Translations under genes and position numbers: made by a program | From: Acidihalobacter sp. | GTDB lineage: Bacteria; Pseudomonadota; Gammaproteobacteria; DSM-5130; Acidihalobacteraceae | Direction of reading: 5' to 3' | Length of the DNA: 37,576 nucleotides | Assembly (NCBI GenBank): GCA_027013225.1 | Contig: JALUXU010000059.1 | Coordinates: forward strand, 1-37,576 | Shown here: positions 9,477 through 37,576 of the stretch, piece by piece | Numbering within the stretch: the first letter of the stretch is position 1 | Layout: each line of letters starts with the position of its first letter | The notes under the pieces: model-generated | Seen by the model: the letters and a program-made list of their open reading frames with translations, nothing else | Told to the model about the DNA's origin: nothing | The model's database searches: none

Positions 9477-9515
9477 CCATTCACAAAAGGGGAATAATTC
9501 AACGTGGGGACTGAA

Positions 9516-10193: not shown

Positions 10194-11726
10194 ATGCATG
10201 AGGTTATTGATCGGCTGCTGATGGAGTTGCGCAGTGCCTGGCGTTTCCGGTGGCCGGCGCTCGGTATTGCCTGGTTGGTGGCCCTTGGTGGCTGGGCATA
10301 TGTCTATTCGCTGCCGAACGTATACGAGGCACATGCTAAGGTGCATGTGGATACGGCATCCATTTTGCGCCCTTTGCTCAATGGCCTGGCGATACAACCC
10401 GACCTCAATCAGGAAGTGCAGCTGTTGACCAAGACCTTGCTCAACCGCGCCAATCTGGAGCAGATCGCGCGCAAGAGCAATCTAGATCTTGGAGGGTTGT
10501 CGCCTGCAGCCAAGGACGCACTGTTGCGTTCCCTGGCCCAGGGAATACACATCCAGGGTTTGGGTCAGGACGTGTACCGAATTAGTTATGCCAGCACTGA
10601 TCCCGCGACGGCGCAGGCCGTAGTGCAGCAGGTGCTGAATATCATGATGGCGGATGCCCTCGGCAACACCAATATGAGTTCGGCCGCTGCGCAGAAGTTC
10701 CTGCAGGCGCAGGTGGCCGATTATGCGAACAAACTCAACCTGGCCGAACAAGCACTGGCGAAGTTCAAGCAAAAAAATCTTGGTTACCTGCCAACTGAGA
10801 GCGGTAATTATTTCAGTAGCTTGCAACAAGCACAGCAAAAGCTTGGCGAGCTTAAAAACCAACTCGTTCTTGCGCAAACCCAGTATGCCGCGCTCAAAAG
10901 TCAGACTCGGCCCATGCTGCGCCCAGACAGCGATCCTCTGATCGCGGCCCTCAACAGGCAAATACTAAAGGATGAACAATCCTTGAACGACATGTTGACC
11001 CAATATACCTCCGAATATCCGGGAGTCATCGCTTTGCGTGAAAAGCTCAAGCTGGAAAAGAAACAGCGTGTCGCAATGGTCAAGCAATTCATGGCTGGTA
11101 ATGGTCAGGCCGCCGCGCCTGACAGCATTGCTTACCAAAACCTGGTGCAGCAGCAAAGCGAGGCAGCGGTAAAAATCCAAACGCTCCGGCAGAAAATAAG
11201 GCAAACCGAGGCCGCCATCGCGAGTCTCAAGGCGGGGGCTGATAAACTCACTAACGTGGAAGCCGAACTCAGTACATTGACGCGCAACTACAATGTCACG
11301 CGCAAGAAATATGACCAATTGCTCAACCGCCTGTATACGGCTCAGCTTTCTCAAAGTGCTCAGGAAAGCGGGAATCCTCTCAAGTTCCAGGTTATCGAGC
11401 CGCCGATCAAACCTCTGCTGCCAGCGGGTCCCAAAAGGCATTTGATGTCATTGGTCGTACTGTTCGGCGCCTTGGGTGCTGGTCTGGCTTTCGCTTATTT
11501 GCTGGCACTGCTGAAACCCGTATTTATGACGCGATCCGAGCTTACCGCCGGATTGGGACTGCCGGTCATTGGCTCGGTCTCCCTGGCCGCGACCAACACC
11601 TATCTTCGTGCCAAAAGAATGGGTGCATTTGGTTTTGGCTTTGCGGTGCTTTTGTTGGTGGTCGGCGGCGTGGCAGTCGCCGAATTTGCCAATCATGGCG
11701 CCCAATTGCTCCATGCCAAACTATAA
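10194..11726 (+). CDS. epsF: Polysaccharide chain-length determinant / co-polymerase (EpsF-like, Wzz family)
   Basis: Inner-membrane polysaccharide co-polymerase that controls chain length and links polymerisation to export. The 510 residues have an N-terminal membrane segment (about 22-40), a Wzz domain with VYEAHAKVHVDTASILRPLL, a long periplasmic coiled coil (about 165-385, rich in Q, K, L and A) and a GNRL-like region NVTRKKYDQLLNRL. Two C-terminal membrane segments are present (about 420-444 and 475-500). There is no fused kinase domain; the separate kinase gene follows after nine bases, the usual EpsF-EpsG split of XrtA loci. The symbol is by analogy. Confidence 0.9.
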   Translation: MHEVIDRLLMELRSAWRFRWPALGIAWLVALGGWAYVYSLPNVYEAHAKVHVDTASILRPLLNGLAIQPDLNQEVQLLTKTLLNRANLEQIARKSNLDLGGLSPAAKDALLRSLAQGIHIQGLGQDVYRISYASTDPATAQAVVQQVLNIMMADALGNTNMSSAAAQKFLQAQVADYANKLNLAEQALAKFKQKNLGYLPTESGNYFSSLQQAQQKLGELKNQLVLAQTQYAALKSQTRPMLRPDSDPLIAALNRQILKDEQSLNDMLTQYTSEYPGVIALREKLKLEKKQRVAMVKQFMAGNGQAAAPDSIAYQNLVQQQSEAAVKIQTLRQKIRQTEAAIASLKAGADKLTNVEAELSTLTRNYNVTRKKYDQLLNRLYTAQLSQSAQESGNPLKFQVIEPPIKPLLPAGPKRHLMSLVVLFGALGAGLAFAYLLALLKPVFMTRSELTAGLGLPVIGSVSLAATNTYLRAKRMGAFGFGFAVLLLVVGGVAVAEFANHGAQLLHAKL

Positions 11727-11735
11727 GGAGTTATC

Positions 11736-14489: not shown

Positions 14490-14514
14490 TCGTCGCAGGA
14501 GCCTTATCCGGACC

Positions 14515-15705: not shown

Positions 15706-15731
15706 GCCTTGTCTCGTAAACGTCCCGGAGA

Positions 15732-16631
15732 ATGACAATGCGCAATGCGCTCAGTATCGATGTGGAGGATTATTTCCAGGTTTCGGCATTCGACCCGGTG
15801 TTGGCTCGGGAGAACTGGGGCAGGTTCGAACTGCGTGTCGAGCGCAACGTTGATCGCCTTCTGGAACTGTTTGACCGTCACCAAGCCAGAGCGACCTTTT
15901 TTACTCTCGGTTGGGTAGCAGAACGCCTTCCCGACATGCTACGTCGAATAGCGGCGGCGGGTCATGAAATCGCCAGCCATGGGATGTCGCATCAGCGGGT
16001 GACGAGCATGAGCCCCAAAGAATTTCGCGATGATATCCGCCTATCGAAAGCGCTGCTCGAGGATCTGGGTGGGCAAGCGGTGCAGGGCTATCGTGCGCCG
16101 AGCTATTCCATCGGTCGTGAAAACCTATGGGCGCTGGATGAGCTAGCCGAGGCTGGCTACCGCTACAGCTCCAGCATTTATCCCATTTATCACGACCATT
16201 ACGGCATGCCGGAGGCGCCTCGTTTCCCTTTCTTTTCAAGCAACCATGGGGTGCTCGAAATTCCTGTGACTACCTTCGTTTGGGGTGGGCGGAACTATCC
16301 AGGGGGCGGGGGCGGTTATTTCCGCTTGTATCCTTATGCCTTGACCCGATGGGCAATCCGACGGGTGAACCGTCAAGATTCACAACCGGCCGTATTTTAT
16401 CTTCATCCATGGGAAATCGATCCGCAGCAACCGCGCATCCAGGGAATAAGCCGCAAGACACGCTTTCGGCATTACCTTAATCTGCATCGTACCGAAGCTC
16501 GGTTGGCGTGCCTGTTGCGGGATTTTTCCTGGGATCGGATGGATAGAGTGTTCGCGGACGAATTACACTCCGCCCGCCAGTCGCCGCCAGCGAAAAAAGC
16601 GTTTTTGCAGTCAGGAAGGGAGACCGCATGA
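15732..16631 (+). CDS. XrtA-system polysaccharide deacetylase (NodB homology, TIGR03006-like)
   Basis: Carbohydrate esterase family 4 type deacetylase that probably removes N- or O-acetyl groups from the exopolysaccharide. The 299 residues carry the NodB motifs: SIDVEDYF (catalytic Asp10), metal ligands in SHGMSH (His83, His87), GYRAPSYSIG (Arg121) and FYLHPWEID (222-230). No signal peptide is visible, as in the XrtA-linked subfamily, so it may act on the cytoplasmic or lipid-linked intermediate. The start could be ATG 15732 or 15738. It is the last gene with about 55% G+C and overlaps the FemAB gene by four bases. Confidence 0.92.
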   Translation: MTMRNALSIDVEDYFQVSAFDPVLARENWGRFELRVERNVDRLLELFDRHQARATFFTLGWVAERLPDMLRRIAAAGHEIASHGMSHQRVTSMSPKEFRDDIRLSKALLEDLGGQAVQGYRAPSYSIGRENLWALDELAEAGYRYSSSIYPIYHDHYGMPEAPRFPFFSSNHGVLEIPVTTFVWGGRNYPGGGGGYFRLYPYALTRWAIRRVNRQDSQPAVFYLHPWEIDPQQPRIQGISRKTRFRHYLNLHRTEARLACLLRDFSWDRMDRVFADELHSARQSPPAKKAFLQSGRETA

Positions 16632-17653: not shown

Positions 17654-18885
17654 TGGCCGAAGACCTGCTGTTTCTGGCTCACCGCATTCCCTATCCGCCG
17701 GATAAGGGTGACAAGATCCGCTCCTTTCATCTGCTGGCCGGGCTGGCGCGGCGCTATCGGGTGCATGTGGGCGCGTTCATCGACGACCCCGAAGATGCGG
17801 CCCACGCCGCTGACTTGCGCCAATACTGCGCCAGCGTGTATATGCCCCGTCTGCACCCCCTGCTCGGCGACCTGCGCGGCCTGCCGCGCACGGTACGCGG
17901 CGCGCCCTTGTCCCTGGCCCGTTATACCCATGGCGCATTCGCCCGCTGGGTGGGCGAAACGCTGCGACGCCAGCGCATCCGGCGTGTGTTCGCCTTTTCC
18001 GCCGCCGTCGGTCGCTATGGCCTGCATCCGACACCCTGGAGCACGGCGCGCATCATGGACTTCGTCGATGTCGATTCCGAAAAATGGCGGCAGTACGCCG
18101 CGCGCGAACGCGGCCCTCTGCGCGCCGTGTATGTACGCGAACACCATACACTGGAACGGGCCGAGGCAGCGCTGGCCGCGGCCTACGATGCCAGCCTGTT
18201 CGTCTCCGCCGAAGAGTCCAGGCTATTTCTTGCGCGCCATCGCGAACTGGACGGCAAGGTCCACGCCATTCCCAATGGCGTGGACGGCGGCTACTTCGAT
18301 CCCGGTGCCAGCCATCCGCGTCCCTTCGCGCAGGGCGTGCGGGCGGCGGTGTTCACTGGCGCCATGGATTATCAGGCCAATGTCGACGGCGTGGTCTGGT
18401 TCTGCCGCGAGGTCTGGCCGGCCGTTCGCGCGGCCCGTGCCGATGCAAGGCTGTATATCGTCGGCCGCCGTCCGTCCTCGGCGGTGAGGGCGCTGACGCG
18501 ACTGGACGGGGTGGAGGTGACCGGCCGCGTGCCGGATGTGCGCCCCTATCTGGCGCATGCGAAGGTGGCGGTGGCGCCGCTACGGGTGGCGCGGGGCATC
18601 CAGAACAAGGTGCTCGAAGCCCTGGCCATGGGGCGGCCGGTGGTCGGTTCCGCCGCCGCCTGGGAAGGGCTTGGGCCCTTCGACCCCCTGTTCGGAGCGC
18701 GGGAGGATGCGCCTGAGGACTTTGCCCGCGCCGTGATCCGCCATCTCGACGCGCCGAATGGCGAGGGCGAGGCGCGGCGCGCGGCCATTCTCGCCCGGTT
18801 CAGCTGGGAGCGCGCGGTGGAACGTTGTCAGGAATTGCTGGAATCCACAGTGGCGCAAAAGCTGCCGCTGGAGGCCGCCCCATGA
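17653..18885 (+). CDS. PEP-CTERM/XrtA glycosyltransferase (TIGR03087-like, GT4)
   Basis: Cytoplasmic glycosyltransferase with a GT-B fold, one of the two transferase types most tightly linked to exosortase A. The 410 residues begin LLFLAHRIPYPPDKGDKIRSFHLL, which is diagnostic of this subfamily. The rest carries PNGVDGGYFDP, FTGAMDYQANVDGVVWF, LYIVGRRPS and a C-terminal nucleotide-sugar region around KVLEALAMGRPVVGS. The sugar donor cannot be deduced. It overlaps the FemAB stop by one base (TAATG) and the xrtA start by four (ATGA). Confidence 0.9.
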   Translation: MAEDLLFLAHRIPYPPDKGDKIRSFHLLAGLARRYRVHVGAFIDDPEDAAHAADLRQYCASVYMPRLHPLLGDLRGLPRTVRGAPLSLARYTHGAFARWVGETLRRQRIRRVFAFSAAVGRYGLHPTPWSTARIMDFVDVDSEKWRQYAARERGPLRAVYVREHHTLERAEAALAAAYDASLFVSAEESRLFLARHRELDGKVHAIPNGVDGGYFDPGASHPRPFAQGVRAAVFTGAMDYQANVDGVVWFCREVWPAVRAARADARLYIVGRRPSSAVRALTRLDGVEVTGRVPDVRPYLAHAKVAVAPLRVARGIQNKVLEALAMGRPVVGSAAAWEGLGPFDPLFGAREDAPEDFARAVIRHLDAPNGEGEARRAAILARFSWERAVERCQELLESTVAQKLPLEAAP

Positions 18886-20402
18886 GCGTGGCCGCAGTCC
18901 TTCCCGCCGCCGAAATCCAGCGCCGCCGCAGTATGAGTCATGCGCTGTTCGTTGCGCTGCTGCTTGCCTATGCAGTCGTGTTCCACACCAGCTTGTTGCG
19001 CCTGGCCGAAGTCTGGGCGGGAGACGGCACCTTCCAGTTCGCCTTCCTGATTCCGCCCATCAGCCTGTTCCTGGTCTGGGAGCGCCGGCACCGGCTGGCC
19101 GGGGTGCCATTCGCCCCGTCCGCGCTCGGCGCGGCGACCATCTTCGCGCTGAGCTTGTTGTGGATGCTGGGCGAGCTGGCGGGGGTGCAGCAGGCACAGC
19201 AGATCGCCCTGGTGGCGCTGCCGCCGGCGATGGTGATCAGCGTCTATGGATGGCAGGCGGCGCGGGCCCTTTTGTTCCCGCTGGCGTATCTGTTCTTCGC
19301 CGTGCCCTGGCCGGTGGAACATTTGATCACCGTGCTGCAGCACATCACCGCCGTGTTTGCCGTGAAGATCCTGCAGCTGACCGGGTTCACAGTGTATCTC
19401 GACGGGGTGCTGATAGAAACGCCGGTTTCGGTGTGGCATGTGGCCGACGCGTGCAGCGGCATCAAGTTTTTCATCGCCATGGTGGCCCTGAGCTTGCTCT
19501 ACGCGCAGATGTTTTTCCATAGCCGCAGGCGGCGGCTGATTTTCGTGGCGCTGGCTTTCATCGTCCCCATCGTCGCCAATGGCCTGAGAGTGTATTTCAC
19601 CATCGTCATCGGCGAAGTATTTGGTGTGCAGTACGCCACCGGCACCGATCACATGATCTTTGGCTGGCAGTTCTTCGGCACCGTATTGCTGCTTTATTTC
19701 CTGGCAGGTTGGCCGTTTCGCGAACCGCCGCCGCCCGAGCCGGCGCCTGCGCCGCCGGCCGCCGCACCGCCCGCCGCCCCCGTCCTGCGCTGGACCCCGG
19801 CGTTGATGCTCTGCCTGCTGGCCGGCCCCATCGCGGCATTTTCTTTAGTACACGCCGCGCCGCGCCCGGCGCCGGCGCCGCCGCTTCCGGAACGGCTGGG
19901 CACATGGCGACTGAACGCACGCGAGCAGGACGTCCTGGGCGCGCATTTCCACCGCGCGGCGCGCCTGTCGGCGCTGCGCTACGCAGACGGCACGGCGCCG
20001 GTGTATCTGGTGGAAGCGGACTATCCAGGACCGCCGCGCCATGGCCGCAAGCTGTTCATGGCGGGAAATCACTGGTATGACCGGGCCTTGTGGCAGGCGC
20101 AGGCGGAACACGATGCCACGCTAAAATTGCCTTCCGGCCAGGCGCTGGTGCTGCGCGAGGCGGTGCTGAACGGGCCGGGGCAGCGCCTGCTGGCCTGGTA
20201 TTGGTACTCCGTCGATGGCCGGCCGACCACTTCCGTACTGCAGGCCAAGTTTTGGCAGCTGCAACGCGTGCTGAGCCTGCACCCGCTGGATACCCGCATC
20301 ACGGTGGTGGCGACGCCTTACCGGCACGACCGGGACGCCGCGCGCACGCGCCTGTCCGCTTTCACGCGCGCGCTCGCCGCCCACGGTGGAGGCGGCGTAT
20401 GA
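18882..20402 (+). CDS. xrtA: Exosortase A fused to a C-terminal EpsI domain
   Basis: Integral-membrane cysteine protease/transpeptidase that cleaves PEP-CTERM signals on exported proteins. The 506 residues give about eight transmembrane helices (about 20-280) with the exosortase catalytic set: Cys191 in ADACSGIKFF, Arg236 in ANGLRVYF and His257 in GTDHMIFGW. A proline/alanine linker (about 282-305) leads to another membrane helix and a periplasmic EpsI domain (about 325-506: PLPERLGTWRL, FMAGNHWYD, WYWYSVDGR). The ATG at 18882 overlaps the previous stop; an in-frame start at 18825 would lie wholly inside the upstream gene. No PEP-CTERM substrate is encoded in the window. Confidence 0.93.
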   Translation: MSVAAVLPAAEIQRRRSMSHALFVALLLAYAVVFHTSLLRLAEVWAGDGTFQFAFLIPPISLFLVWERRHRLAGVPFAPSALGAATIFALSLLWMLGELAGVQQAQQIALVALPPAMVISVYGWQAARALLFPLAYLFFAVPWPVEHLITVLQHITAVFAVKILQLTGFTVYLDGVLIETPVSVWHVADACSGIKFFIAMVALSLLYAQMFFHSRRRRLIFVALAFIVPIVANGLRVYFTIVIGEVFGVQYATGTDHMIFGWQFFGTVLLLYFLAGWPFREPPPPEPAPAPPAAAPPAAPVLRWTPALMLCLLAGPIAAFSLVHAAPRPAPAPPLPERLGTWRLNAREQDVLGAHFHRAARLSALRYADGTAPVYLVEADYPGPPRHGRKLFMAGNHWYDRALWQAQAEHDATLKLPSGQALVLREAVLNGPGQRLLAWYWYSVDGRPTTSVLQAKFWQLQRVLSLHPLDTRITVVATPYRHDRDAARTRLSAFTRALAAHGGGGV

Positions 20403-26983: not shown

Positions 26984-28095
26984 ACGCGCCTTGGCTGCGC
27001 GCGCTGCGCGAGCGCCTGCCGCTGCCGCGGCGCGCGCTGGAGCCGGAGACGGCGTGCCATGCCCTGGCGCGATGGCTCGCCCGGGCGCAGGACGCGGGCG
27101 GCGGCGGAGCGAGCGCCTGGTACGACGCGCGTCAGCGGCGCTGGGCGGCGGCCTATCCGGAAGTGAGCGGTTACATTATTCCCACCTTGTTCGATTATGC
27201 CCGTGACTTTCACGCGCCGAAGTTTCATAAACGCGCCTTGCGCATGGCGGACTGGGCCTGTGCGGTGCAACTGCCGGACGGTGGCGTACGCGCTGGATTG
27301 ATGGACGCACCGCAGGTGGTGCCCACCGTATTCAATACTGGCCAGTCCCTGTTCGGCTGGGCGCGGGCGTTGGAGGAAACCGGCGAGTCGCGCTATCGGG
27401 AGTCCCTGCGCCGCGCCGCCGACTGGCTGCTTCGCGCGCAGGACGAAGACGGGGTCTGGCGGCGCTTCGGCTCCCCGTTTTCGGCCCCGCCGCCCAATGC
27501 TTATAATACCCGCACCGCTTATGGGCTGGCGCGGGCCGCAGAGGCGCTGGGCGAGCCGCGTTACCTGGCGGCGGCGCGGCGCAACGTGGATTGGGCGCTC
27601 GGCCAGGCACGCGCCAACGGCTGGCTGCCGCACAATGACCTGGAAGACGCCGCCCGGCCCTTGACCCATACCATTGCCTATGCCCTGCGCGGTATTCTCG
27701 AAGTCGCGGCGCGGGATGGCGGGGCGGGGCTGGAGACCGTGGCGACCGCCGCCCGCGTCTTAGCCCGCGCGCAGCGGCTCGACGGCGCGCTGCCAGGCCG
27801 GATGGACGCCGACTGGCAGGCCGCGGCACGCTGGAGCTGCCTGACCGGCAACGCCCAGCTCGCTCTGGTATGGTTGCGGCTGGCCGAAGTGGGCGGCGAG
27901 GCTGGCTGGATGACGAGCGCCACGCGCGCGCTGGACTTCAATCTGCGCTGTCTGCGGGTGGCGGGGGCGGATGGCATAGTGGGCGGAGTGCCGGGCTCGC
28001 ATCCCTTCGACGGCCCTTACATGCGCTTCCGCTACCCGAGCTGGGCGGCCAAATTCATGCTGGACGCGCTGCTGCTGCGGCGCAGGATGAGCTGA
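26980..28095 (+). CDS. Alpha/alpha-toroid protein of unknown function, XrtA-locus associated
   Basis: Not assigned to a characterised enzyme. The 371 residues lack a signal peptide and are predicted all-helical with at least five repeats of one helix pair ending in a short glycine turn: MADWACAVQLPDGGV, AADWLLRAQDEDGVW, NVDWALGQARANGWL, AARVLARAQRLDGAL and ALDFNLRCLRVAGADGIVGG. This is the pattern of (alpha/alpha)6 barrels such as sugar epimerases, unsaturated glucuronyl hydrolases and terpenoid cyclases. A late GVPGSHPFDGPYMRFRYPSW segment could line a sugar site. Start ATG 26980 overlaps the ATP-grasp stop. A cytoplasmic sugar epimerase or hydrolase acting on the precursor is possible (inference). 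Confidence 0.7.
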   Translation: MNAPWLRALRERLPLPRRALEPETACHALARWLARAQDAGGGGASAWYDARQRRWAAAYPEVSGYIIPTLFDYARDFHAPKFHKRALRMADWACAVQLPDGGVRAGLMDAPQVVPTVFNTGQSLFGWARALEETGESRYRESLRRAADWLLRAQDEDGVWRRFGSPFSAPPPNAYNTRTAYGLARAAEALGEPRYLAAARRNVDWALGQARANGWLPHNDLEDAARPLTHTIAYALRGILEVAARDGGAGLETVATAARVLARAQRLDGALPGRMDADWQAAARWSCLTGNAQLALVWLRLAEVGGEAGWMTSATRALDFNLRCLRVAGADGIVGGVPGSHPFDGPYMRFRYPSWAAKFMLDALLLRRRMS

Positions 28096-28096
28096 G

Positions 28097-29425
28097 ATGC
28101 GTGGTTTGCTGTTGATTCTGTTCGTGATGGGCACCTTGCCGATGGCACTGGTGGAACCCTACATCGGCCTGTTGCTGTGGACGCTTTTCAGCGACATGAA
28201 CCCTTACCGTGAGGTCTATGGCTTCGCGGCGCGCATTCATTGGGTGTACCTGATCGCGGCGGTGACCATTTTTTCGGCCATCATCCATGCCAACAAGCTG
28301 CAGCGCCTGCGCTGGGACGCCTTGACCGTGCTGATGGTGTTCTTCGTGCTGTTCACTGCGGTTTCGAGTTATTTTTCTGTTGTGCCGTGGTATGCCTGGC
28401 CGCACTGGCAGCAATTGTTCAAGGTGGTGTTACTGTCGTTTTTCATCATCCTTTTGATCGATTCGCGCAAGCGATTGGATCTGTTGATCTGGGTGTTCGT
28501 GATCTCTTTCGGCTTCTGGGGCATGAAGGGCGGCCTGTTCACGCTGGTGCATGGCGGCCATTACATCGTCATGGGTCCGGCAGCGTCCTTCTACGGAGAC
28601 CGCAACCAATTCGCCCTGGTCATGTGCATGACCCTGCCTCTGATGCGCTATCTGCAGTTGCAGGTGCGCTCGCGCTGGGTCCGGCTTGGTTTGTGGGTGG
28701 GTATGGCTCTCGTGGTGATGTCGATTCTTGGCACCTATTCGCGCGGTGGCCAGATCGCCCTGGCCTTTGTGCTTCTGGCCCTGATCTGGAAGAGCCGTGG
28801 CCGCTTCCGGTTGCTGTTCCTCACCGCGGCACTGTTGCCGCTGGCTCTGAGTTTCATGCCGGCGCAATGGACCCACCGCATGGAGGCCGTGGTCAGCGGC
28901 GGGGCCGAGAAGGGAGGCTCTTTCCAGGGACGGGTGCAGTCCTGGGAGTTCGCGACCAACTACGCCCTGCATCATCCCATTCTCGGCGGCGGTTTCGGCG
29001 TTTGGCTCAGCCGGGATGCCTGGGATCAGTACGGCCCGCCGGGTGCGCATCACCGCGCCATCCACAGCGTCTGGTTCCAGGTGCTGGCCGAGCAGGGCAT
29101 GGTGGGCTTCGGCCTGTATGTGCTGATGTTGGCCAGCGCCTGGCTGTATCTCGGCCGCGTGCGCAGGCTGGCCCGGGGCGACCCCGACAGCGTGTGGATG
29201 TACGATCTGGCCGGCTTCATTCAGGTGAGTTTGGTGGCGTTCGCAGTAGCCGGCAGCGCCTTGCCGCAGGCATACTTCAATTTTCTGTTCCAGTTGTATG
29301 CCGTGGCGTCGTTGCTGCTCAAGTTCGCCTTGCAAAACCGCATAGCACAACGGGCCACCGCGCCAGCGGGCTATCGGACCGCCCCCAGCCGCCCGCTGGC
29401 GTATGACAAAAGTGCGCTGCGATGA
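28097..29425 (+). CDS. O-antigen-ligase-like membrane protein, exosortase A-associated (TIGR03097-like)
   Basis: Polytopic inner-membrane protein of the Wzy/WaaL superfamily, a candidate polymerase or glycan-to-protein ligase. The 442 residues give about ten to eleven transmembrane helices. They carry the subfamily start LPMALVEPYIGLLLWTLFSDMNPY, then GPAASFYGDRNQFALVMCM and LGTYSRGGQIALA. The large periplasmic loop has GRVQSWEFATNYALHHPILGGG and HRAIHSVWFQVLAEQGMVG, where Wzy_C enzymes place key Arg and His residues. It starts one base after the toroid gene. No other Wzy-like polymerase is in the window, so this protein may be the polymerase itself. Confidence 0.88.
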   Translation: MRGLLLILFVMGTLPMALVEPYIGLLLWTLFSDMNPYREVYGFAARIHWVYLIAAVTIFSAIIHANKLQRLRWDALTVLMVFFVLFTAVSSYFSVVPWYAWPHWQQLFKVVLLSFFIILLIDSRKRLDLLIWVFVISFGFWGMKGGLFTLVHGGHYIVMGPAASFYGDRNQFALVMCMTLPLMRYLQLQVRSRWVRLGLWVGMALVVMSILGTYSRGGQIALAFVLLALIWKSRGRFRLLFLTAALLPLALSFMPAQWTHRMEAVVSGGAEKGGSFQGRVQSWEFATNYALHHPILGGGFGVWLSRDAWDQYGPPGAHHRAIHSVWFQVLAEQGMVGFGLYVLMLASAWLYLGRVRRLARGDPDSVWMYDLAGFIQVSLVAFAVAGSALPQAYFNFLFQLYAVASLLLKFALQNRIAQRATAPAGYRTAPSRPLAYDKSALR

Positions 29426-30677
29426 GCCGACGATACCGCGTTTACAACGGAAGATCAATCGCGTGAGGCAGCCAAGCCAGGTGCTGCTGCTGGCGAGCAA
29501 TTTCCCGCCGGTGATCGGCGGCTCGGCGCGGGTGTATGCCCAGATTGCCCAGGCGGCCGCGGGGCATGTGCGCGTGTTGACCGCTCGCCGTTTCTATGTG
29601 GATGGCCGCGAGTTGGCCGATTGGCGCGTTCATGACCAAGCGCAGAATTATCTTGTCGAGCGGCTGGATTTGTTGCGCACGCCATTGCAGGGTGGCGGGC
29701 AGCACGGTGGACTGCGCAAGTGGCGGCAGCGTCTGACTGATATGATCTTGCGTACCCGTGTTCTGGCGGCTTTGTTCAGGCGCGTATATCTGGGGCCGGT
29801 ACGCTGCGTGTGCATCGGCGAACTGGTGGCCAACGGCTGGATCGCGCGCTGGCTCAAGTTTTGGCCTGGCGTGCGGACGGTGATCTATGTCCACGGCGAG
29901 GAGCTCACCACGGCAGATGGTTACGATGCCGATGGTGCGCGGCGCCGGTGTTTTTTGCGTGCGGCCGATGCCGTGATCGCGGTCAGCCGCTTCACCGAGC
30001 AGACACTGCATCATTTCGCCGGCGAGGATCTGCCGGTCACGGTGATTGCTAATGGCGTCGATTTCGCCCGCTTCGAACGGGCCGCGCCGGGCGAACACAG
30101 GCAAGGTTTGGGTTGGGACGATTGTTTCGTTTTCATCAGCGTGTGCCGCCTGCTGGAGAAAAAGGGCATCGATCACGCCTTGCGCGCTTTCGCCCGCCTC
30201 GCCAGACAGCGGGTCGAGGTGCGCTATCTGATCGTCGGCGAAGGGGAATACGAGCCTCGCTTGCGCAGGATCGCCGCCGAAGAAGGCATCATGGACCGGG
30301 TGGCCTTCGTCGGCAGGGTGGATGAGGGAGAACTTCCGGCGATCTACAAGGCGGGCGATGTGTTCGTGATGCCCAACCGCAGGCTGCCCAACGGCGACAC
30401 GGAAGGCTTCGGGCTGGTGTTTCTGGAGGCGAACGCCGCCGGTCTGCCGGTCATCGCCGGGCGGGACGGCGGCAGCGTGGACGCGGTGCGCGACGAATAC
30501 AACGGTCTGCTGGTCGATGGCGCTTCGATCGATGCCATCGAGGCGGCCATGGCACGTCTGCTGGACAATGCCGTATTGCGCCGGAAACTTGCGGAAAACG
30601 GCCTGCGCCATGCGCGCGAGAATGACTGGTACCGCAAGAGCTGGGAATTTTTGCGATTGTGCCTGGGCGAAACATGA
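29403..30677 (+). CDS. GT4 glycosyltransferase
   Basis: GT-B fold glycosyltransferase, 424 residues from the first ATG. Core motifs are VLLLASNFPPVIGGSARVYAQIA (G-G acceptor loop, split by P-P), YVHGEELTT, VIANGVDFARFER, SVCRLLEKKGIDHALRAFA, VGEGEYEPRLRR and the donor motif EGFGLVFLEANAAGLPVIA followed by GGSVDAV. The ATG at 29403 overlaps the ligase-like gene by 23 bp and has no ribosome site. A GTG at 29463, with GGAAGA about eight bases upstream, would remove 20 poorly conserved residues and is the better-supported start. Substrate unknown. Confidence 0.87.
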   Translation: MTKVRCDEPTIPRLQRKINRVRQPSQVLLLASNFPPVIGGSARVYAQIAQAAAGHVRVLTARRFYVDGRELADWRVHDQAQNYLVERLDLLRTPLQGGGQHGGLRKWRQRLTDMILRTRVLAALFRRVYLGPVRCVCIGELVANGWIARWLKFWPGVRTVIYVHGEELTTADGYDADGARRRCFLRAADAVIAVSRFTEQTLHHFAGEDLPVTVIANGVDFARFERAAPGEHRQGLGWDDCFVFISVCRLLEKKGIDHALRAFARLARQRVEVRYLIVGEGEYEPRLRRIAAEEGIMDRVAFVGRVDEGELPAIYKAGDVFVMPNRRLPNGDTEGFGLVFLEANAAGLPVIAGRDGGSVDAVRDEYNGLLVDGASIDAIEAAMARLLDNAVLRRKLAENGLRHARENDWYRKSWEFLRLCLGET

Positions 30678-32257
30678 ACTGGTTTGGCGTACGTTTTCCT
30701 GAAAACTTCAACGCGATTCCGGAAACCGGAGTCGATTGCGGCTGGCAGGATTTGCGAAAACAGGGCTCCGTGGTCGCCCGCACCGCCTTCGGCGCGGCCT
30801 GGATCATCGGTTGGCGTTTCGTCAACCGTTTTCTTGGCATCATCAGCACCCTGATCCTGGTGCGCTTGCTGGTGCCGGCGGACTTCGGCGTAGTGGCGCT
30901 GGCCATGGGTTTCGTGCAGGGCTTGCAGCAACTGGCCGAGCTCGGCACCGAAAACGCCATCATCCGCGCCGACATGCCGGACCGCCAGCTTTACAACACC
31001 GGCTTTACCATCAACGTGCTGCGTGGTTTCGGCGTGGCCGTGATATTGCTCATCATCGCCGTGCCAGCGGGACATTTCTTCAACAGTCCCCACTTTACCC
31101 AGGTCACTTTCGTGGCCGCGGCGGTGAGCGCCATCTCCAGTTTGCAGAACATTGGTGTGGTCGATTACCGCCGCTACATGGCTTTCGACAAGGAATTCCT
31201 GCTCAAGCTGCTGCCGCGCCTGGTTTCGGTGAGCACGGCCATCGGGTTGGCCTTCGTATTCCGCGATTACTGGGCGCTGATCATCGCCATTCTGGTCAAC
31301 GTCATCGTCGACACCCTGTTGAGTTATGCCTTGCATCCTTACCGCCCTGGTTTCACTCTTGCCGGATGGCCACGCATGGCTTCGTATTCGACGCTTTTGT
31401 GGCTGTCCAATATCGCCGGCCTGCTGGGCGGTCTGGGCAGCAAATCGACCATCACCAAGATGACGAATGTCGGCGCCCTGGGCTTGTTCGAGGTCGCCAG
31501 TGAGGTGGCTCAACTGCCGAGCTCGGAGCTGATCGCTCCGTTGACGCGGGCGATGTTCTCCGGCCTTTCCGAAGTGCGCACCCAGGCCGACCGGGGTGCG
31601 GCTTTGCTGGTGAAAATGATGACCACCATGAACATGATCGTTCTGCCCATGGGGGTGGGTTTGTCGCTGGTGGCCGAGCCTGCCATCCGCCTGGCCTTCG
31701 GCGAAAAATGGCTGGGGGCGGTGCCTTTGCTGCAGGTCTTGGCGCTGGGGGGGGCGATCTCCATTTTCGGGGAAATGAGCCGGCAGGCGTTCGCGGTGCA
31801 CGGCTGGATGAAGGCGATGCTCAAAATGAGCGTGGTGTTCGGCTTGTCGGCCATCGGCAGTATCGTTTTGTTCATCCACCTGTTCGGTTTCCCTGGCATC
31901 GCCATAGGGTTGGTGCTCAATGGCACGCTCGGCGGTTTGATCTATTTCGTCGTCGCCATGCAGCGATTGCAGATCTCATGGCGACGCCTGGGCGCGGGGG
32001 TATGGCGCAGTTTCGCCGGCACCGCGGTCATGGCGGGGTTGATGGACGTCATGGGTTTTGGCTGGTTCGATTTCCATCCAGGCCTCGGCAACGGGGCGCT
32101 GGCGCTGCAACTGGCGGAAATGATCGGCATAGGCGCCGTTTCGTATGTGGCGAGCGTGCTTGTGCTATGGTGGATTTCCGGGCGGCCTGCAGGGCCGGAG
32201 CGCGATCTGCTCGGGTACCTGCAAGGCATTATTCAAGGCCGAAAGGCCAGGCGATGA
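30674..32257 (+). CDS. Lipid-linked oligosaccharide flippase (Wzx/WzxC-like, MOP superfamily)
   Basis: Membrane transporter that would move the undecaprenyl-linked repeat unit to the periplasmic face. The 527 residues hold about 12-14 transmembrane segments beginning near residue 40. The polysaccharide-synthase signature is IISTLILVRLLVPADFGVVALA with GTENAIIR. The protein continues with a second half (MTNVGALGLFEVASEVAQLPSSELIAPLTRAMFSGLSEV, broken by helices) typical of WzxC-type proteins. The ATG at 30674 overlaps the preceding stop by four bases; the open frame from 30659 would add five residues. With the ligase-like protein it completes a Wzx/Wzy-type route. Confidence 0.88.
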   Translation: MNWFGVRFPENFNAIPETGVDCGWQDLRKQGSVVARTAFGAAWIIGWRFVNRFLGIISTLILVRLLVPADFGVVALAMGFVQGLQQLAELGTENAIIRADMPDRQLYNTGFTINVLRGFGVAVILLIIAVPAGHFFNSPHFTQVTFVAAAVSAISSLQNIGVVDYRRYMAFDKEFLLKLLPRLVSVSTAIGLAFVFRDYWALIIAILVNVIVDTLLSYALHPYRPGFTLAGWPRMASYSTLLWLSNIAGLLGGLGSKSTITKMTNVGALGLFEVASEVAQLPSSELIAPLTRAMFSGLSEVRTQADRGAALLVKMMTTMNMIVLPMGVGLSLVAEPAIRLAFGEKWLGAVPLLQVLALGGAISIFGEMSRQAFAVHGWMKAMLKMSVVFGLSAIGSIVLFIHLFGFPGIAIGLVLNGTLGGLIYFVVAMQRLQISWRRLGAGVWRSFAGTAVMAGLMDVMGFGWFDFHPGLGNGALALQLAEMIGIGAVSYVASVLVLWWISGRPAGPERDLLGYLQGIIQGRKARR

Positions 32258-32282
32258 GGCGTGAACACCATGGGTCAGTACG

Positions 32283-34394
32283 ATGAATAAACAGGAAGGC
32301 TCCTCATGGACGAGGGCGGGCAAGCAGTTTTCCATCAGATTTCTGCTCAGCCTGCTCTTCGTCCTTCTCTTCGCGCCGGCTGCCGCCCAGGCGGCGGAAT
32401 GGGTCAAGGCGTCGTTGCTGCCTGCATTGAGCGGGCCGAACGGCCTGGCCGTTTTCGCCTTGCAGAACACATCGAAAAAAGAAATCCGCTCCAGTTTTCT
32501 GTCATTAGCCACCGTGCTCGCGCCGGGCGCGCTGCGCCGGCCTTTTGCAGTGCAAGGCAAGCTGGAAGGCCGGGTCGTCCCCGTGCAACTCGATCCGAGA
32601 ACCCATTACGCGGATGGCTCCATACGTTTTGCCATGGTCACGGTGAAAGTGCCTGGCCTGCCTGCAAGGGGGCTGGAACGGCTGAAGCTCGTCCGCGAGC
32701 CGGCACAAACAAGCCGACCCGCCCCGGCCGTGGCCATCGCACCCGTACTCGAGCGTTTTGCACCCGTGGTGGTGCTGAAGTTTTATGCCATCGACGGCAA
32801 GAAACTGAGCGCGCCAAAAATGATTCGCGTCGATCTTACCTCGCTGCTCAACATGTCGCGCAAGGCGCAGTCTGCGCTCGATTATTGGCGGCACGGCCCG
32901 TTGGCGACGGAAGTCAGGCTGCAACGGCCGGTGCTGTCATCACTCAGGCTGGTGGCCGATGCCACGGCTTATGCCGACGGTTCACTGTCGCTCGACGTGC
33001 AGTTCAATAACGACATCGCTATGTCACCGCAGGGCGGTACGCTCGTCTATACGGCGCAATTGCGGATCAAGGGGCAAACCGTATATGACAGTGGCATGAT
33101 CAAGCAATATCAATACCAGACTTGGCATCGGGTGTGGCGCTCGGCGGGCTGGCCGCCTGTCAATGTGGTGCACGATGTGCCGCGGCTGGCGGCTCTGGAA
33201 GTGATCCCGAATTATCAGACGCTTTATGGCCTGCCGGCCGGGCTGTTACGCAATGAGTTGAAATCGTTGCGCAGCAAGGGTTGGGGCAGACCTCTTTCGG
33301 GCAATGATGTGACGCCTTACATGCCCATGACCGGAGGACGTCCCGACATCGGGCCGGTGACAGGAGCCAACGCGGCATGGCTGATCACGCAAAATCCCGT
33401 GGCCGCGGCTTTTGCACTGGGACAGGCGGATACCGCCGGGGCCGTGCCCTGGCATTTCTATCTGCCCGCCAGGGGCCGCTATCTCACCACCGAGGATTAC
33501 CCCGACTTCTGGGCCGACCCACGCGGTGGTCCGCATTCCCATACCACGGGCCTCACGCAGCCGTACCGTTTTGCCGGCGGCTGGCATCCTGATGTGGCGC
33601 ACATGCCCAGCCTGGCCTTCGTGCCCTATCTGCTCACAGGCCGGCACTATTATCTGGACCAGCTCAATGCCGAGGCTTTGTACGCCATCCTGGGACAATG
33701 GCCATCGCCGCGCCAGAACGGCAAAGGCATAGTGGTCGGTCCCGGCGCGCAGGTCAGAGGCGGGGCATGGAGCCTGCGCGAGATCGCCTACGCCGCTTGG
33801 GTCAATCCGGAAAATTCATACTTCGGGCGATATTTTCGCAAGATATTGCGCAACAACATGCGCTTCCTGGAGCAACACTTGCCTGAATGGACCCGCGAGG
33901 AAGGCCAGGCGTATGGCTATGTCCCCGGTTCCTACGGCCATTCGGGCGCAATGGCGCCATGGCAGCAGGATTTTCTTGCCACCAGCGTGGCTACCATCGC
34001 GCGCCTTGGCATACCCGGCGCCAAGCGCGTGCTGCAATGGCAGACGCACTTCCTCGCCGGCAGTTTGCAGCCACAACCCGGCTGGAATCCACACGACGGC
34101 ATCGCCTACAACCTGTTCGTCTACAACCCGAAAACGAAGCGGCGTTACACCACCTGGGCCAAGATCCGCAAAGTCACTGAGAAGAATGGTCAGGCCAATG
34201 GCAACGGCTGGAAACACAGCCGCGGTTATTACGGTATGGTGCGCATGGCCGCGCTGGCGTCCATCTATAACGTCACCGGTTCGAAACAGGCCCTGGCGGC
34301 CTACCGCTGGCTGGCCGGCAGCGGCGCGCCTGGAGTGTCCCATGCGGCCCGAGCTCGACAGCCACAGTACTGGATCGTGCCTTTTGCACAATGA
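32283..34394 (+). CDS. Secreted RIFT-barrel plus alpha/alpha-toroid protein (PcRGLX/YetA-like, polysaccharide lyase-like)
   Basis: Probably an exported carbohydrate-active protein. The 703 residues begin with a signal peptide (hydrophobic FLLSLLFVLLFAPAAAQA, about 20-38, cleavage after AQA). A beta-rich part (about 40-340) with YADGSIRFAMVTVKVPGLPARG resembles the N-terminal RIFT barrel of exo-rhamnogalacturonan-lyase-like proteins. From about 350 to 690 it is helical and rich in aromatic and histidine residues (GPHSHTTGL, GGWHPDVAHMPSLAFVPYLLTG, GYVPGSYGHSGAMAPWQQD, GNGWKHSRGYYGMVRMA), consistent with an alpha/alpha toroid with a sugar cleft. It could trim or release polymer in the periplasm. 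Family assignment is by motif recall and needs a profile search. Confidence 0.6.
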   Translation: MNKQEGSSWTRAGKQFSIRFLLSLLFVLLFAPAAAQAAEWVKASLLPALSGPNGLAVFALQNTSKKEIRSSFLSLATVLAPGALRRPFAVQGKLEGRVVPVQLDPRTHYADGSIRFAMVTVKVPGLPARGLERLKLVREPAQTSRPAPAVAIAPVLERFAPVVVLKFYAIDGKKLSAPKMIRVDLTSLLNMSRKAQSALDYWRHGPLATEVRLQRPVLSSLRLVADATAYADGSLSLDVQFNNDIAMSPQGGTLVYTAQLRIKGQTVYDSGMIKQYQYQTWHRVWRSAGWPPVNVVHDVPRLAALEVIPNYQTLYGLPAGLLRNELKSLRSKGWGRPLSGNDVTPYMPMTGGRPDIGPVTGANAAWLITQNPVAAAFALGQADTAGAVPWHFYLPARGRYLTTEDYPDFWADPRGGPHSHTTGLTQPYRFAGGWHPDVAHMPSLAFVPYLLTGRHYYLDQLNAEALYAILGQWPSPRQNGKGIVVGPGAQVRGGAWSLREIAYAAWVNPENSYFGRYFRKILRNNMRFLEQHLPEWTREEGQAYGYVPGSYGHSGAMAPWQQDFLATSVATIARLGIPGAKRVLQWQTHFLAGSLQPQPGWNPHDGIAYNLFVYNPKTKRRYTTWAKIRKVTEKNGQANGNGWKHSRGYYGMVRMAALASIYNVTGSKQALAAYRWLAGSGAPGVSHAARARQPQYWIVPFAQ

Positions 34395-34418
34395 ACTCAT
34401 GCGTAAATACGGATTGAA

Positions 34419-34907
34419 ATGACCCTAAGAATACTCAGTGTGCTGTCTGGCGCCGGATTTACTTTTGAGACGGAAAAATTGCTCGAACCGTTGGCGGACA
34501 AGGCATCCTTCATTGTATTGAACACATGGTTCGGCGGACGATTGGATGAGCATCGATTCAATATGGCCGAGTATATTTCTGTGCCGAGCTTTCCTACCGT
34601 CACCCAGCCATCCAGGATGCAGGCGGTTCGCGCATTCTGGCAGACGTACCGCATCGCGCTACGCGCCTTCGAATCGCACCGCCCTGACCTGGCGGTGGTC
34701 GTGGGTTGCAGCCATGCGGTGCCGGTCTTTTTGGCCGCGCGCCGAACAGGCGTGGCCACCGTTTTCGTGGAAAGCATCACCCGCTGTGACCAGCTCTCGC
34801 TGACCGGCAAACTGGTGCGCGCTCTGCGCTTGACCGATCTGTTCATCGTGCAATGGCCCGAATTGCAAAAACACTATCCGGGCGCGCAATTGGGGAGCAT
34901 ATTGTGA
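34419..34907 (+). CDS. PssD/Alg14-like glycosyltransferase membrane-anchor subunit
   Basis: Half of a split GT28-type glycosyltransferase: Alg14-like proteins anchor and supply the acceptor site for an Alg13-like catalytic partner. The 162 residues start ILSVLSGAGFTFETEKLLEPL, a variant of the N-terminal glycine-rich acceptor loop. DLAVVVGCSHAVPVFLAARRTG follows, then the conserved FVESITRCDQLSLTGKLVRAL and FIVQWPELQKHYPGAQLGSIL, the usual C-terminus. The stop overlaps the GTG of the partner gene. In rhizobia PssD-PssE adds glucuronic acid; the same donor here is plausible but unproven. Confidence 0.85.
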   Translation: MTLRILSVLSGAGFTFETEKLLEPLADKASFIVLNTWFGGRLDEHRFNMAEYISVPSFPTVTQPSRMQAVRAFWQTYRIALRAFESHRPDLAVVVGCSHAVPVFLAARRTGVATVFVESITRCDQLSLTGKLVRALRLTDLFIVQWPELQKHYPGAQLGSIL

Positions 34908-35371
34908 TTCTGGTCACCGTCGGCACCACCATGCCTTTCGATGAATTGCTCGCAGAAGTCGACCGGCTCGCCGAAAAAGGTTTTTTCGAGGGCACGCTGC
35001 TCGTGCAGTCCGGACAATCGAAATACCGTATGCGGCATGGCGAGCAATTCGTCGGCCGCCCCGGGCTTCAGGATCTGATCGATCAAAGTGATATGGTCAT
35101 CACCCACGGCGGCGCGACCGTGATCCAGCTTCTATTGTCCGGCAAGCCGTTCGTGGCCTTTCCCAATCCGCGCGCCGCCGGCGATCACCAAACGGCGTTT
35201 CTGTGCCAAGTGTCCGAGGTCATGGATATTTCATGGAGTCGGGATGTCGCCGACCTGGAGCGCCTTTGCACAGAACGCAGAAAAACAGGGCCGGCGCGAA
35301 ATGACGGCGCGTTTCCCAAGGCCGCTTCTCTGATTGAAAATTTCGCGCGCCACAAAAAAGACGATATGTGA
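34904..35371 (+). CDS. PssE/Alg13-like glycosyltransferase catalytic subunit
   Basis: Donor-binding half of the split glycosyltransferase. The 155 residues from GTG 34904 begin ILVTVGTTMPFDELLAEVDRLA, the Alg13 start. They keep QSGQSKYRM, LIDQSDMVITHGGATVIQLLLSGKPFVAFPNP, the GT28 UDP-sugar site with HGG, and GDHQTAFLCQVSEV. The GTG overlaps the PssD stop by three bases; the longer frame from 34853 is rejected because it lies inside PssD and similarity begins at the GTG. It is the last intact gene of the locus. No clear terminator follows. Confidence 0.88.
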   Translation: MILVTVGTTMPFDELLAEVDRLAEKGFFEGTLLVQSGQSKYRMRHGEQFVGRPGLQDLIDQSDMVITHGGATVIQLLLSGKPFVAFPNPRAAGDHQTAFLCQVSEVMDISWSRDVADLERLCTERRKTGPARNDGAFPKAASLIENFARHKKDDM

Positions 35372-36277
35372 GGGTGAATATCGATCACTCAGACTTAAAT
35401 CATTGGCCTTGTCAATCATGTCGATCGCAAACGGATACAACGCCTCATGAGATTGGTGGGCCTGCTCCAGTGACGCCAGGTTCTCATGCCCGTCGTCCAT
35501 TTCCGCAGTACAAGGCCTGTTCCTATTGGCCAAGGGGCCTTGCTATCACACGCCCCCGCCGCTGGTCGAGTGCAGTTTTTGACCTGCCAGTCGTATTCCA
35601 GGGAAGGCCAGAGGGTTGTCAGGTCTTCGGACAATGGAGTCAGACGATTTGGCATGGGCCGGTGTCATGCGGATGCAGGGCGTGCATTCAAAGCATACCG
35701 TTACGCGAGTATAGATATGGATTAAACGACAGCAAGGGGCGGCATGGGAGGTGCGAGGCTCAAACTGCGCTCATGCCATGAGAAGTGAGGTCATGCCGTA
35801 GGACATCGCGATCCCAAATCTTTGTTTGTGAATAGTGTCGAAAAATCTTACACACTTTTTAAGCACATGTATTAGACAAGAATCTCTGACGTTGTCTCAT
35901 GGTATTTGCCTGTTCATTCGTCTGTTCCTTTGTCATGTCAAGCGCCTTGGCTCAGGGCCTGTACGGCAGATGGTGACGGTGGATCATGCGGATATACGTG
36001 GATTGGTGACCACCGGACTTCACTGCGTCGCGGAGCTGGCCTTGATCTAACGTCAGGGTTCATCGGCCGGGGGGCTCGTGTGATATCGTCCCGTTATGCC
36101 CTATTCGAAGCGAACGGTCTGCAGGACAATGCAAAATTTGCGCGACATCACCGCGGGATCGTGCGTGGGTACGGCCGGTTTCTCCATCGCAATGCGGTTC
36201 TCGGGCGTGCCAGTACGCCTGAAAAACGGGCTTATCTGGCCTCCGACGAGGCGTTTACCGGTTAGGCGCGTAACGAG
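35372..36277. other. About 900 bp without a convincing gene
   Basis: Short frames on both strands show no recognisable domain, poor starts and lower G+C than the locus. Two things stand out. A minus-strand stretch (35655 down to about 35480) reads LSEDLTTLWPSLEYDWQVKN and, after a frame change, DDGHENLAS; this vaguely recalls a decayed zinc-ribbon (DUF4379-type) protein. An A/T-centred near-palindrome, TGTCGAAAAATCTTACA, lies at 35836-35852. The stretch looks like decayed accessory DNA between the polysaccharide locus and the frameshifted acetyltransferase gene. Confidence 0.5.
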
Positions 36278-36986
36278 ATGACGCGCGAACGTGAACGACT
36301 GCTCGCCGAGGCGGTGCGCCAGGCATGTATTGATGCCTGGCGTGAGGGGTATGAGTCGGCGTGTATGAGCGGGTTGTGTGCTGAAGGTGCGCTCGAAGTG
36401 GGGCTCAGTGCCGTGCAGAATCTCGATCTGACAAACGTGACCGCTCTTGGGCGGATTCCGCAGTCTGCTGCTCAATCCCAGGCCGCGACGTTCGATGGGT
36501 TTGACGTGCGCCGCGCGACGTCCGGGGATTGGCCGGCTATCTGGTCGTTTTTTCGGCCCATCGTCGAGGCCGGCGAAAGCCATCCCTATCCGTCCGATAT
36601 ATCCGAAGACGCTGCCCGCGCGGCATGGATGGACACGCCGTCCGCGACCTATGTTGCAGTGCGTGACGGTCGTGTAGTCGGCAGTTATTACCTCAAACCG
36701 AATCAGCCGGGCCGCGGCGCACATGTGTGCAATGCAGGCTATATGGGTCGATCCGGCGGCGCGCGGCGGTGGCGTCGCTACGGCGCTGTGTGTGCATTCA
36801 CAAGCTGAAGCGAGGCGACTGGGGTTTCGCGCGATGCAGTTCAATCTGGTGGTGGCGAGCAATGCGGCGGCGATCCATCTATGGCGCAAGCTTGGTTTCG
36901 AGCAAATCGGGGTGTTGCCCCGTGCGTTTGATCACGCGCGCCTGGGGCTGGTCGACGCGCTGGTGTTGTATCGCTGGCTGGATTGA
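36278..36986 (+). pseudogene. GNAT acetyltransferase gene with a one-base frameshift
   Basis: Two overlapping frames together spell one protein of about 235 residues. The first (36278-36808) holds an N-terminal helical segment (about 1-50, QACIDAWREGYESACMSGLCAEGALEVGL) and the first half of a GNAT domain (FDVRRATSGDWPAIWSFF to YYLKPNQPGRGAHVCNAGYM). The second frame continues with VDPAARGGGVATAL, the acetyl-CoA loop, AIHLWRKLGFEQIGVLP and a normal C-terminus ending at 36986. Removing one G from the GGG run at 36745-36747 restores the full protein, so this is either a recent mutation or a sequencing error. The N-terminal part resembles a small stand-alone family often mislabelled acetyltransferase, here fused to the catalytic domain. 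Not obviously linked to the polysaccharide locus. Confidence 0.8.
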
Positions 36987-37098
36987 GGCTCCGCCACGAT
37001 CTGCGCGGGCGATGGGCGCTATAACGCGATGAATTCGGGCGGCGGTCGGCGTCCAGCCGTAGCAGGCCGTGTTCCGTCCGCGGCGGCCAGATGCCTTG
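36987..37098. other. Junction between the acetyltransferase pseudogene and the IS91 fragment
   Basis: No gene or recognisable repeat is seen. It may contain the breakpoint at which the transposase gene lost its 5' part. The transposase frame is open from 37025, but residues before about 37100 do not resemble the family. Confidence 0.4.
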
Positions 37099-37099
37099 C

Positions 37100-37576
37100 C
37101 CGGCGGTATCGGAAAAGCGCCTGTCACTCACGCCCAACGGCACCATCCGCTACCAGCTCAAGACGCCCTACTGGGATGGCACCACCCATGTAATCTCTGA
37201 GCCGCTGGACTTCATAGCAAGACTGGCGGCGTTGGTGCCGAAGCCGCGTGTGAACTTGACGCGCTTCCACGGCGTGTTTGCCCCGAACAGTCGGCACAGG
37301 GCGTTGGTGACACCGGCGAAGCGGGGCAGGGGGCACAAGGACCGGGTAGCTGGTGAACCGCCAACGCCAGCCGAACGGCATACCTCGATGACATGGGCAC
37401 AGCACCTCAAACGCGTTTTCAATATCGACATCGAGACCTGCAACGCCTGCGGCGGCGCTATGAAGGTGATTGCCTGTATTGAAGACCCGGTGGTGATCAA
37501 GCAGATCCTCGATCACCTGGAGCACAAATCAGAAGCCAGTCAGCCCAGGGCGCTACCCGAAAGCCGGGCGCCGCCG
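37100..37576 (+). pseudogene. IS91-family transposase, 5'-truncated, runs off the window
   Basis: The frame from 37100 to the last base encodes the C-terminal part of an IS91-type (Y2 rolling-circle) transposase. It reads PAVSEKRLSLTPNGTIRYQL, LKTPYWDGTTHVISEPLDF, PRVNLTRFHGVFAPNS and, further on, the CNACGG-containing segment FNIDIETCNACGGAMKVIA. The N-terminal zinc finger, the HUH motif and most of the catalytic domain are missing upstream; similarity stops abruptly near 37100, probably with a small deletion. The stop codon lies beyond the window. The first ATG in this frame is 37091. It is a likely non-functional relic marking the right edge of the accessory region. Confidence 0.85.

Follow-up and report, generated by a model that had tools for sequence, protein, structure and literature searches.

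The window (the whole stretch of DNA analysed here, 37,576 nucleotides long) carries an XrtA exopolysaccharide (EPS) locus in which a gene for a 703-residue protein is packed between a Wzx-type flippase gene, 25 bp away, and a PssD-like glycosyltransferase gene, 24 bp away. An earlier note on this DNA had described an exported protein of this length between the flippase and PssD/PssE genes, and that description holds: the open reading frame is exact, the neighbours are found in place, and the N-terminus is of Sec type, with a charged start, a hydrophobic stretch (9-residue hydropathy above 3) and then AQA-AE. The note's XrtA label is equally correct, since exosortase A (TIGR03109) and four further XrtA-system models (TIGR03097, TIGR03108, TIGR03007 and TIGR03016) score above their cut-offs in the locus. 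The features that matter for the argument below are collected in Table 1.

Table 1. Coordinates of the 703-residue gene, its domains and conserved residues, and neighbouring genes of the XrtA locus.
Feature	Position	Strand	Basis
XrtA-system chain length determinant	10194..11726	+	TIGR03007 420 bits, cut-off 278.85
Exosortase A with EpsI domain, XrtA locus marker	18825..20402	+	TIGR03109 290.1 bits, cut-off 208
XrtA-associated ligase-like protein (TIGR03097)	28097..29425	+	396.5 bits, cut-off 188.1
GT4-type glycosyltransferase	29403..30677	+	PF00534 8.8e-41
Wzx-type flippase, directly upstream	30659..32257	+	PF13440 6e-56
703-aa PL26-related secreted protein	32283..34394	+	ATG start; open reading frame, relatives and model
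Signal peptide, about residues 1-39	32283..32399	+	Sequence and hydropathy, low model confidence at 1-36; estimated cleavage site
Beta domain, about residues 42-298 (RIFT-barrel-like part and reduced beta sandwich)	32406..33176	+	Model, Foldseek, PF19501 in relatives
Alpha/alpha toroid, residues 299-703	33177..34391	+	Model and PDB matches
His440, proposed catalytic base (putative role)	33600..33602	+	89/89
Tyr449, proposed acid (putative role)	33627..33629	+	81/89
Arg492, proposed carboxylate binder (putative role)	33756..33758	+	89/89
Arg499	33777..33779	+	89/89
Asp563, acid if the enzyme is a hydrolase (putative role)	33969..33971	+	89/89
PssD-like glycosyltransferase half	34419..34907	+	NF041549 67 bits, below equivalog cut-off 110
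PssE-like glycosyltransferase half	34853..35371	+	NF041548 81 bits, below equivalog cut-off 120

The reading frame is not a chance one, because the congeneric genome G263 (G and L numbers are our handles for genomes and loci) encodes a copy that is 73% identical, with dN 0.19 and dS 1.49 between the two genes, and because further relatives were confirmed. The G263 copy sits in a largely syntenic XrtA locus. A consensus scan of positions 28000-37576 found 0 sigma-70-like promoters where 3.0 were expected, and the gene is therefore likely to be co-transcribed with its locus neighbours. Elsewhere in the window, a search against Rfam returned only a tRNA, which lies close to the window edge (348-420, minus strand). 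GC content is 67-71% in the core of the XrtA locus (18001-28000) and 53-58% at positions 1-16000, and the core looks like an acquired island; the XrtA locus of G263 likewise rises to 64-70% GC across much of its length. The locus also holds a separate pair of genes, at 26908-28095 and 25817-26983, for a toroid-type protein that is probably cytosolic (Pec_lyase 4e-5, squalene-cyclase-C 2e-4) and a dinucleotide-binding or ATP-grasp-like protein; G263 and L104 have both genes again, L071 the toroid gene alone and L092 part of it.

The window protein has no match at E<=1 in Pfam, NCBIfam or PHROGs, including the alginate-lyase (AlgL/PL5) models of Pfam, and the family that it represents has no Pfam or NCBIfam name. 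In the profile search for a RIFT barrel that the earlier note had proposed, the window protein itself falls in no Pfam family, and its relatives do match PF19501 (PcRGLX_1st), the RIFT model of PcRGLX, the PL26 exo-rhamnogalacturonan lyase (EC 4.2.2.24 type). Ten of the 14 aligned family members (alignment A1) match it at E<=1, the best at 5e-5, though only this N-terminal PcRGLX model is matched and mostly below its 22.1-bit cut-off, with L035 reaching 23.3. Neither of the other two PcRGLX models, PF21345 and PF21346, is matched in the genome of the window protein. PF21345 is matched elsewhere in the class, in 10 of 274 genomes, by other PL26-like proteins; of 13 loci with such proteins, five show BLAST similarity to the family, and only a weak one (best E-values 1e-5 to 1e-4).

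A link in sequence to PL26 runs through five PL26-like proteins of the same class (alignment A3: L109, L111, L112, L113 and L117). A3 finds PcRGLX in the PDB at E 1.6e-15, and a profile comparison of A3 with our 62-row family alignment (A2) gives Prob 90 and E 1.6e-6 over 507 columns, the latter being a pairwise and not a database E-value. Without this bridge, neither phmmer with the window protein nor the A1 and A2 profiles reached PcRGLX among PDB sequences. We reject ordinary PL26 membership, because no PL26 model matches the window protein and because the large central beta sandwich is reduced: PcRGLX_2nd (PF21345) alone has 360 positions, and the whole beta part of the window protein only 259 residues. 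As judged from sequence and model, the family is related to PL26, lies outside it and has a reduced middle domain.

The predicted structure leads to the same place. An AlphaFold2 model built from A2 (pLDDT 92.1, pTM 0.92) has a beta part up to about residue 298 followed by a toroid up to 703, which is the PL26 trait of a RIFT-barrel front and an alpha/alpha toroid back. A Foldseek search of the PDB returned seven matches with E<=0.001, all of them PcRGLX chains, though with poor superposition (TMq 0.27-0.31, rmsd 17-20). In the VIA comparison PcRGLX (5XQ3, 5XQG, 5XQJ and 5XQO, the last with a tetrameric substrate) is the best PDB match over both parts, with Z 13.1, rmsd 4.2 and 11% identity over 506 residues (model 51-703); the remaining VIA rows (GH88/GH105, sugar epimerases, GH76, GH48 and C5-epimerases) have Z of at most 10.8 and cover nearly always the toroid only. 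We weight coverage of both domains above Z, since helical folds can reach comparable Z by chance. When the beta part is folded alone (pLDDT 93.7), PcRGLX is the sole Foldseek match with E<=0.001 (best 1.8e-4), while VIA places the beta domains of GH38 mannosidases at 8.8 and PL26 at 7.5. The 259 residues of the beta part align by VIA to PcRGLX 24-509 over 206-223 residues. The architecture is common to both proteins, and the PcRGLX beta part is longer; the two differ further in their low identity (about 10%) and in having no direct sequence match. The earlier note's picture of a RIFT-barrel-like front (model, PcRGLX matches and PF19501 in relatives) and a toroid back (model and PDB toroid matches) is borne out, as is similarity to a carbohydrate-active fold, and a PL26-like fold is, going by the model, almost certain.

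The toroid-only matches raise the question of whether the chemistry could be that of a different enzyme class. Unsaturated uronyl hydrolases of GH88/GH105 and AGE-type epimerases have a toroid in common with the window protein (Z 8.4-10.8 over about residues 312-703), in each case as a toroid-only match with no family-level sequence match. One alternative is therefore that the protein is a glycoside hydrolase with the same place and role, in which the toroid would cleave the chain by hydrolysis, Asp563 or Asp437 serving as the acid. The GH88/GH105, GH76 and GH48 rows in this Z range speak for it, as do the conservation of Asp563 in 89/89 sequences and of Asp437 in 85/89, and an exported GH16 enzyme, PrmQ, is predicted to trim the EPS of Sphingomonas (PMC11340318); because the hydrolase matches are confined to the toroid and the two-domain match is a lyase, we consider this reading unlikely. 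A second alternative is a uronyl C5-epimerase, in which the toroid would take the C5 proton and then re-protonate, altering the polymer without cutting it. Lyases and epimerases have their first chemical step in common, and toroids of D-glucuronyl C5-epimerases match at Z 8.8-9.1, beginning at about residue 299 and ending at 681-689. These matches have lower Z and span 227-238 residues against 506 for PL26, which leaves the epimerase with a slim chance.

Conservation within the toroid bears on whether the protein is an enzyme at all. We inspected 20 toroid positions over 89 sequences, and five of them, His440, Arg492, Trp496, Arg499 and Asp563, are invariant in every sequence; Asn525 and Tyr609 follow with 87 of 89, His391 (like Asp437) with 85, and Arg353 and Arg477 with 83. 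In A2, conservation of 95% or more is seen at 24 of 405 toroid positions and at 8 of 257 beta-part positions; Gly82, Gln102, Ser113 and Gly205 are the invariant ones of the beta part. The conserved His, Tyr and Arg of the toroid that the earlier note had named as a possible sign of catalysis are present, together with Asn, each in 81-89 of the 89 sequences. The His/Tyr/Arg/Asn set may resemble the active sites of PL5 and PL8, and its conservation fits a lyase type without proving one. All five bridge proteins of A3 have a Tyr at the place of Tyr449, a count to be read with the search pattern in mind, which itself demanded Tyr or Phe there. Four of the five have a His one residue further upstream (H-x9-Y versus H-x8-Y in the family), L111 being without it, and because of this one-residue offset we do not treat the conserved His as strictly equivalent to the PL26-like His.

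The same data speak to the idea that the protein is non-catalytic and binds or anchors polysaccharide on a degenerate lyase fold. We know of no activity for any family member, and the pI of the mature window protein, 10.1, could suit the binding of an acidic polymer. A high pI is not general in the family (the median is 4.75 in the alpha clade and 6.9 in the other rows), and in the toroid five residues, all polar or aromatic, do not vary in any of the 89 sequences even though members are mostly 23-47% identical to the window protein; we therefore give a purely binding role a very slim chance.

Now we consider where the family occurs. In a class sample of 369 genomes, drawn evenly, 13 carry the family (the window's own genome included) and 113 have an exosortase at E<=1e-10. 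Exosortases are found in 12 of the 13 carriers, where about 4 would be expected, against 101 of the 356 other genomes (Fisher p 4.3e-6; the exception is G191). The association persists when counted by genus (9/10 versus 79/261, p 2.2e-4), when the window's own genus is removed (10 of 11 carriers, p 3.9e-5) and when only XrtA above cut-off is accepted (8/13 versus 65/356, p 9e-4; 6/11, p 0.009, without the own genus), these statistics correcting for shared ancestry at genus level only. In the other direction, just 12 of the 113 exosortase genomes have the family protein, which is thus optional there.

A scan of contigs confirmed 204 stretches that encode relatives, of which 80 were kept. Thirty named loci, chosen by hand, lead to 28 genomes, with XrtA above cut-off in 20 and any match in 21 (Acidiphilium rubrum included), a count of which the base rate of XrtA in those lineages is not part. 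Family gene and exosortase lie on one contig in 12 of these 21 genomes, 3-44 kb apart at the nearest, and on separate contigs in 9; among the class carriers that have an exosortase they are on the same contig in four of 12 (window, G263, G167 and G335) and on different contigs in eight. A test against uniform placement, which left out the different-contig genomes and the window contig, gives p 3e-4 for 14 same-contig pairs and p 2e-5 for the nine contigs longer than 300 kb. In L126, L124, L125, L127/L128, L129/L130, L131, L133 and L134/L101 the family gene adjoins or forms part of a stretch that holds XrtA and further locus genes; in L138 it stands between a glycosyltransferase gene and AsnB on a contig without XrtA. 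XrtA loci with family copies are found among alpha-, beta- and gammaproteobacteria, so that the presence in other XrtA loci on which the earlier note had staked its proposal is seen in co-occurrence, linkage and named loci alike, and a recurrent association of the family with XrtA loci is well supported. At least one of 16 EPS proteins of the window is encoded nearby (E<=1e-8, loci of at least 9 kb) in 14 of 17 loci from the alpha group and in 12 of the remaining 53; the 16 markers include common glycosyltransferases and come without a background rate, and an off-locus stretch (L098) matches two of them.

Some observations on individual neighbourhoods can be added. The XrtA locus of G167 (L101) encodes, directly adjoining the family gene, 630- and 666-residue proteins (3956-5848 and 5845-7845) with no Pfam match at E<=0.001, and Oceanibacterium (L038/L130) has three consecutive family copies in one XrtA locus. 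Many Massilia copies adjoin peptidase genes. Within that genus one group (L043, L048, L055) has M20 and S9 peptidases with LysR as fixed neighbours, and another (L041, L044, L057) a diheme cytochrome c and an M13 peptidase.

This distribution is also the place to weigh whether the protein scavenges foreign polysaccharides and is found in EPS loci by accident. The single characterised enzyme of PL26 acts on pectin (PMC10461819; title of 5XQ3), with PcRGLX serving fungal pectin breakdown where the window family belongs to bacterial EPS loci; most exosortase genomes of the class do without the protein, and in Massilia many copies lie away from EPS loci. Against scavenging stand the co-occurrence and linkage with exosortases and the tight fit of the gene between the Wzx and PssD/E genes of the window, and we see it as a distinctly unlikely explanation. 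That the protein acts on the cognate polysaccharide of its own locus is, by contrast, probable.

If the substrate is the cell's own polymer, the site of action becomes important. The window protein carries a signal peptide, and no anchor is visible in it; no PEP-CTERM tail was seen on it, and TIGR02595 has no match at E<=0.01 in its own genome. No T2SS secretin scores above the GspD cut-off in the window's own genome (G000) or in G263; sub-cut-off matches of 192-194 bits are present. Because of the signal peptide, the missing anchor and the lack of a secretin above cut-off, the periplasm is the most likely location for the window protein. Many relatives probably act extracellularly or at the outer membrane, because they have RTX-like repeats (by motif in 8 of the 24 alpha-clade rows, confirmed by Pfam in the three tried, L031, L035 and L037) or a lipobox-like N-terminus (22 of 65 other rows, by a loose pattern). 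The family thus appears to work beyond the inner membrane. GlyGly-CTERM-like tails suspected in L005, L007, L009 and L011 were rejected, there being no such NCBIfam match; the tail of L009 has only a weak NCBIfam match, to a rhombosortase-dependent M36 C-terminal model.

Known systems offer two models for such a role. AlgL is a periplasmic alginate lyase proposed to clear misguided alginate from the periplasm, and deletion of algL in P. aeruginosa is described as doubling the yield and leaving polymer length unchanged (PMC5099689). Like the window protein, AlgL is exported and encoded in a polysaccharide locus; the window protein, a putative lyase, differs in lacking an alginate-lyase Pfam match at E<=1. 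In view of the relatives with RTX repeats or lipoboxes we have dropped a strictly periplasmic AlgL analogue for the family and kept it for the window protein. PrmQ, ExoK and ExsH are likewise exported and trim the EPS of the cell that makes them (PMC11340318, PMC5748678, PMC5099689); they differ in being hydrolases and not PL26-like, PrmQ belonging to GH16. We model periplasmic clearance on AlgL and trimming during secretion on PrmQ.

How did such a gene come to this locus? In an 89-row tree (a quick method with SH-aLRT support only and midpoint rooting) the window and G263 proteins fall within a clade of 24 rows that is alphaproteobacterial apart from them (support 100), grouping with L018 (92), then with the Acidiphilium rows (84) and L019 (100), while the remaining gammaproteobacterial rows are in the other half of the tree. 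Because it nests among alphaproteobacterial copies, the window gene was probably acquired horizontally. Wzx directly precedes the family gene in L018 and L019, and in Acidiphilium (L016, L017) PssD/PssE follow it after 1.3-1.9 kb, for which the simplest reading would be that a partial cassette moved between acidophiles. A complication is that these Acidiphilium copies, the nearest to the window's, lie near PssD/PssE and off the XrtA contig. Acidiphilium also has a longer paralogue, an open frame of 1361-1379 residues, 3-6 kb from XrtA (G369 C25, G370 C11).

Bringing these lines together, we propose that the protein is an exported, PL26-related, two-domain carbohydrate-active enzyme that cuts the exopolysaccharide of its own XrtA locus by beta-elimination, a complete reading that we rate at about even chances; lyase chemistry taken by itself is just as finely balanced. 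In the proposed mechanism, the polymer would contain uronic acid and the toroid would bind the chain, with the carboxylate held by Arg492, Arg499 and Asn525, His440 acting as base and Tyr449 as acid. Beta-elimination would then break the bond, and it would be the natural chemistry for a PL26-like toroid if uronic acid is present. The cut would trim chains or clear them away, either within the periplasm or as they are released, and relatives with RTX tails or lipoprotein anchors would make it extracellularly or at the outer membrane.

The expectation of uronic acid comes from the glycosyltransferase genes, because PssDE-type enzymes add glucuronate: PssDE of Rhizobium is described as a glucuronosyltransferase that adds glucuronic acid to lipid-linked glucose (PMC5748678). 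By this analogy, uronic acid in the locus polymer is plausible but not established, since PssD and PssE of the window score below cut-off and since no PssD/E match was found in 49 kb around the enzyme gene of G263 (best E 0.68). The two NDP-sugar dehydrogenases in the window's own genome are uninformative, with 13 of 14 controls matching too.

The predicted fold, the export and the recurrent association with XrtA loci are well supported, and the lyase chemistry and role are reasonably inferred. A more far-reaching reading, which we put forward tentatively and at somewhat less than even chances, is that of a new lyase family, a sister of PL26 without the large central sandwich, which would serve as a recurrent depolymerase of XrtA loci in three proteobacterial classes (alpha, beta and gamma), at a site that depends on the lineage (periplasm, outer membrane for lipoproteins, exterior for RTX proteins), and which in acidophiles would have moved between classes, perhaps with the flippase and PssDE. 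XrtA loci have been tied to biofilm and floc formation (PMC5418355, PMC9850573). Our literature search, with subscription journals mostly outside its scope, found no paper pointing to a lyase of XrtA, exosortase or PEP-CTERM loci, and in a term search the founding PEP-CTERM paper (PMC1569441) had no words that begin with lyase, hydrolase or glucuron. A lyase-like protein conserved at the XrtA locus is a direct handle on this system: the chemistry of the polymer could be read from its products, and knocking the gene out would show whether trimming matters. For the PL26-like enzymes, among which one member of PL26 itself has been characterised (PMC10461819), the family would add a branch that acts on the producer's own exopolysaccharide.
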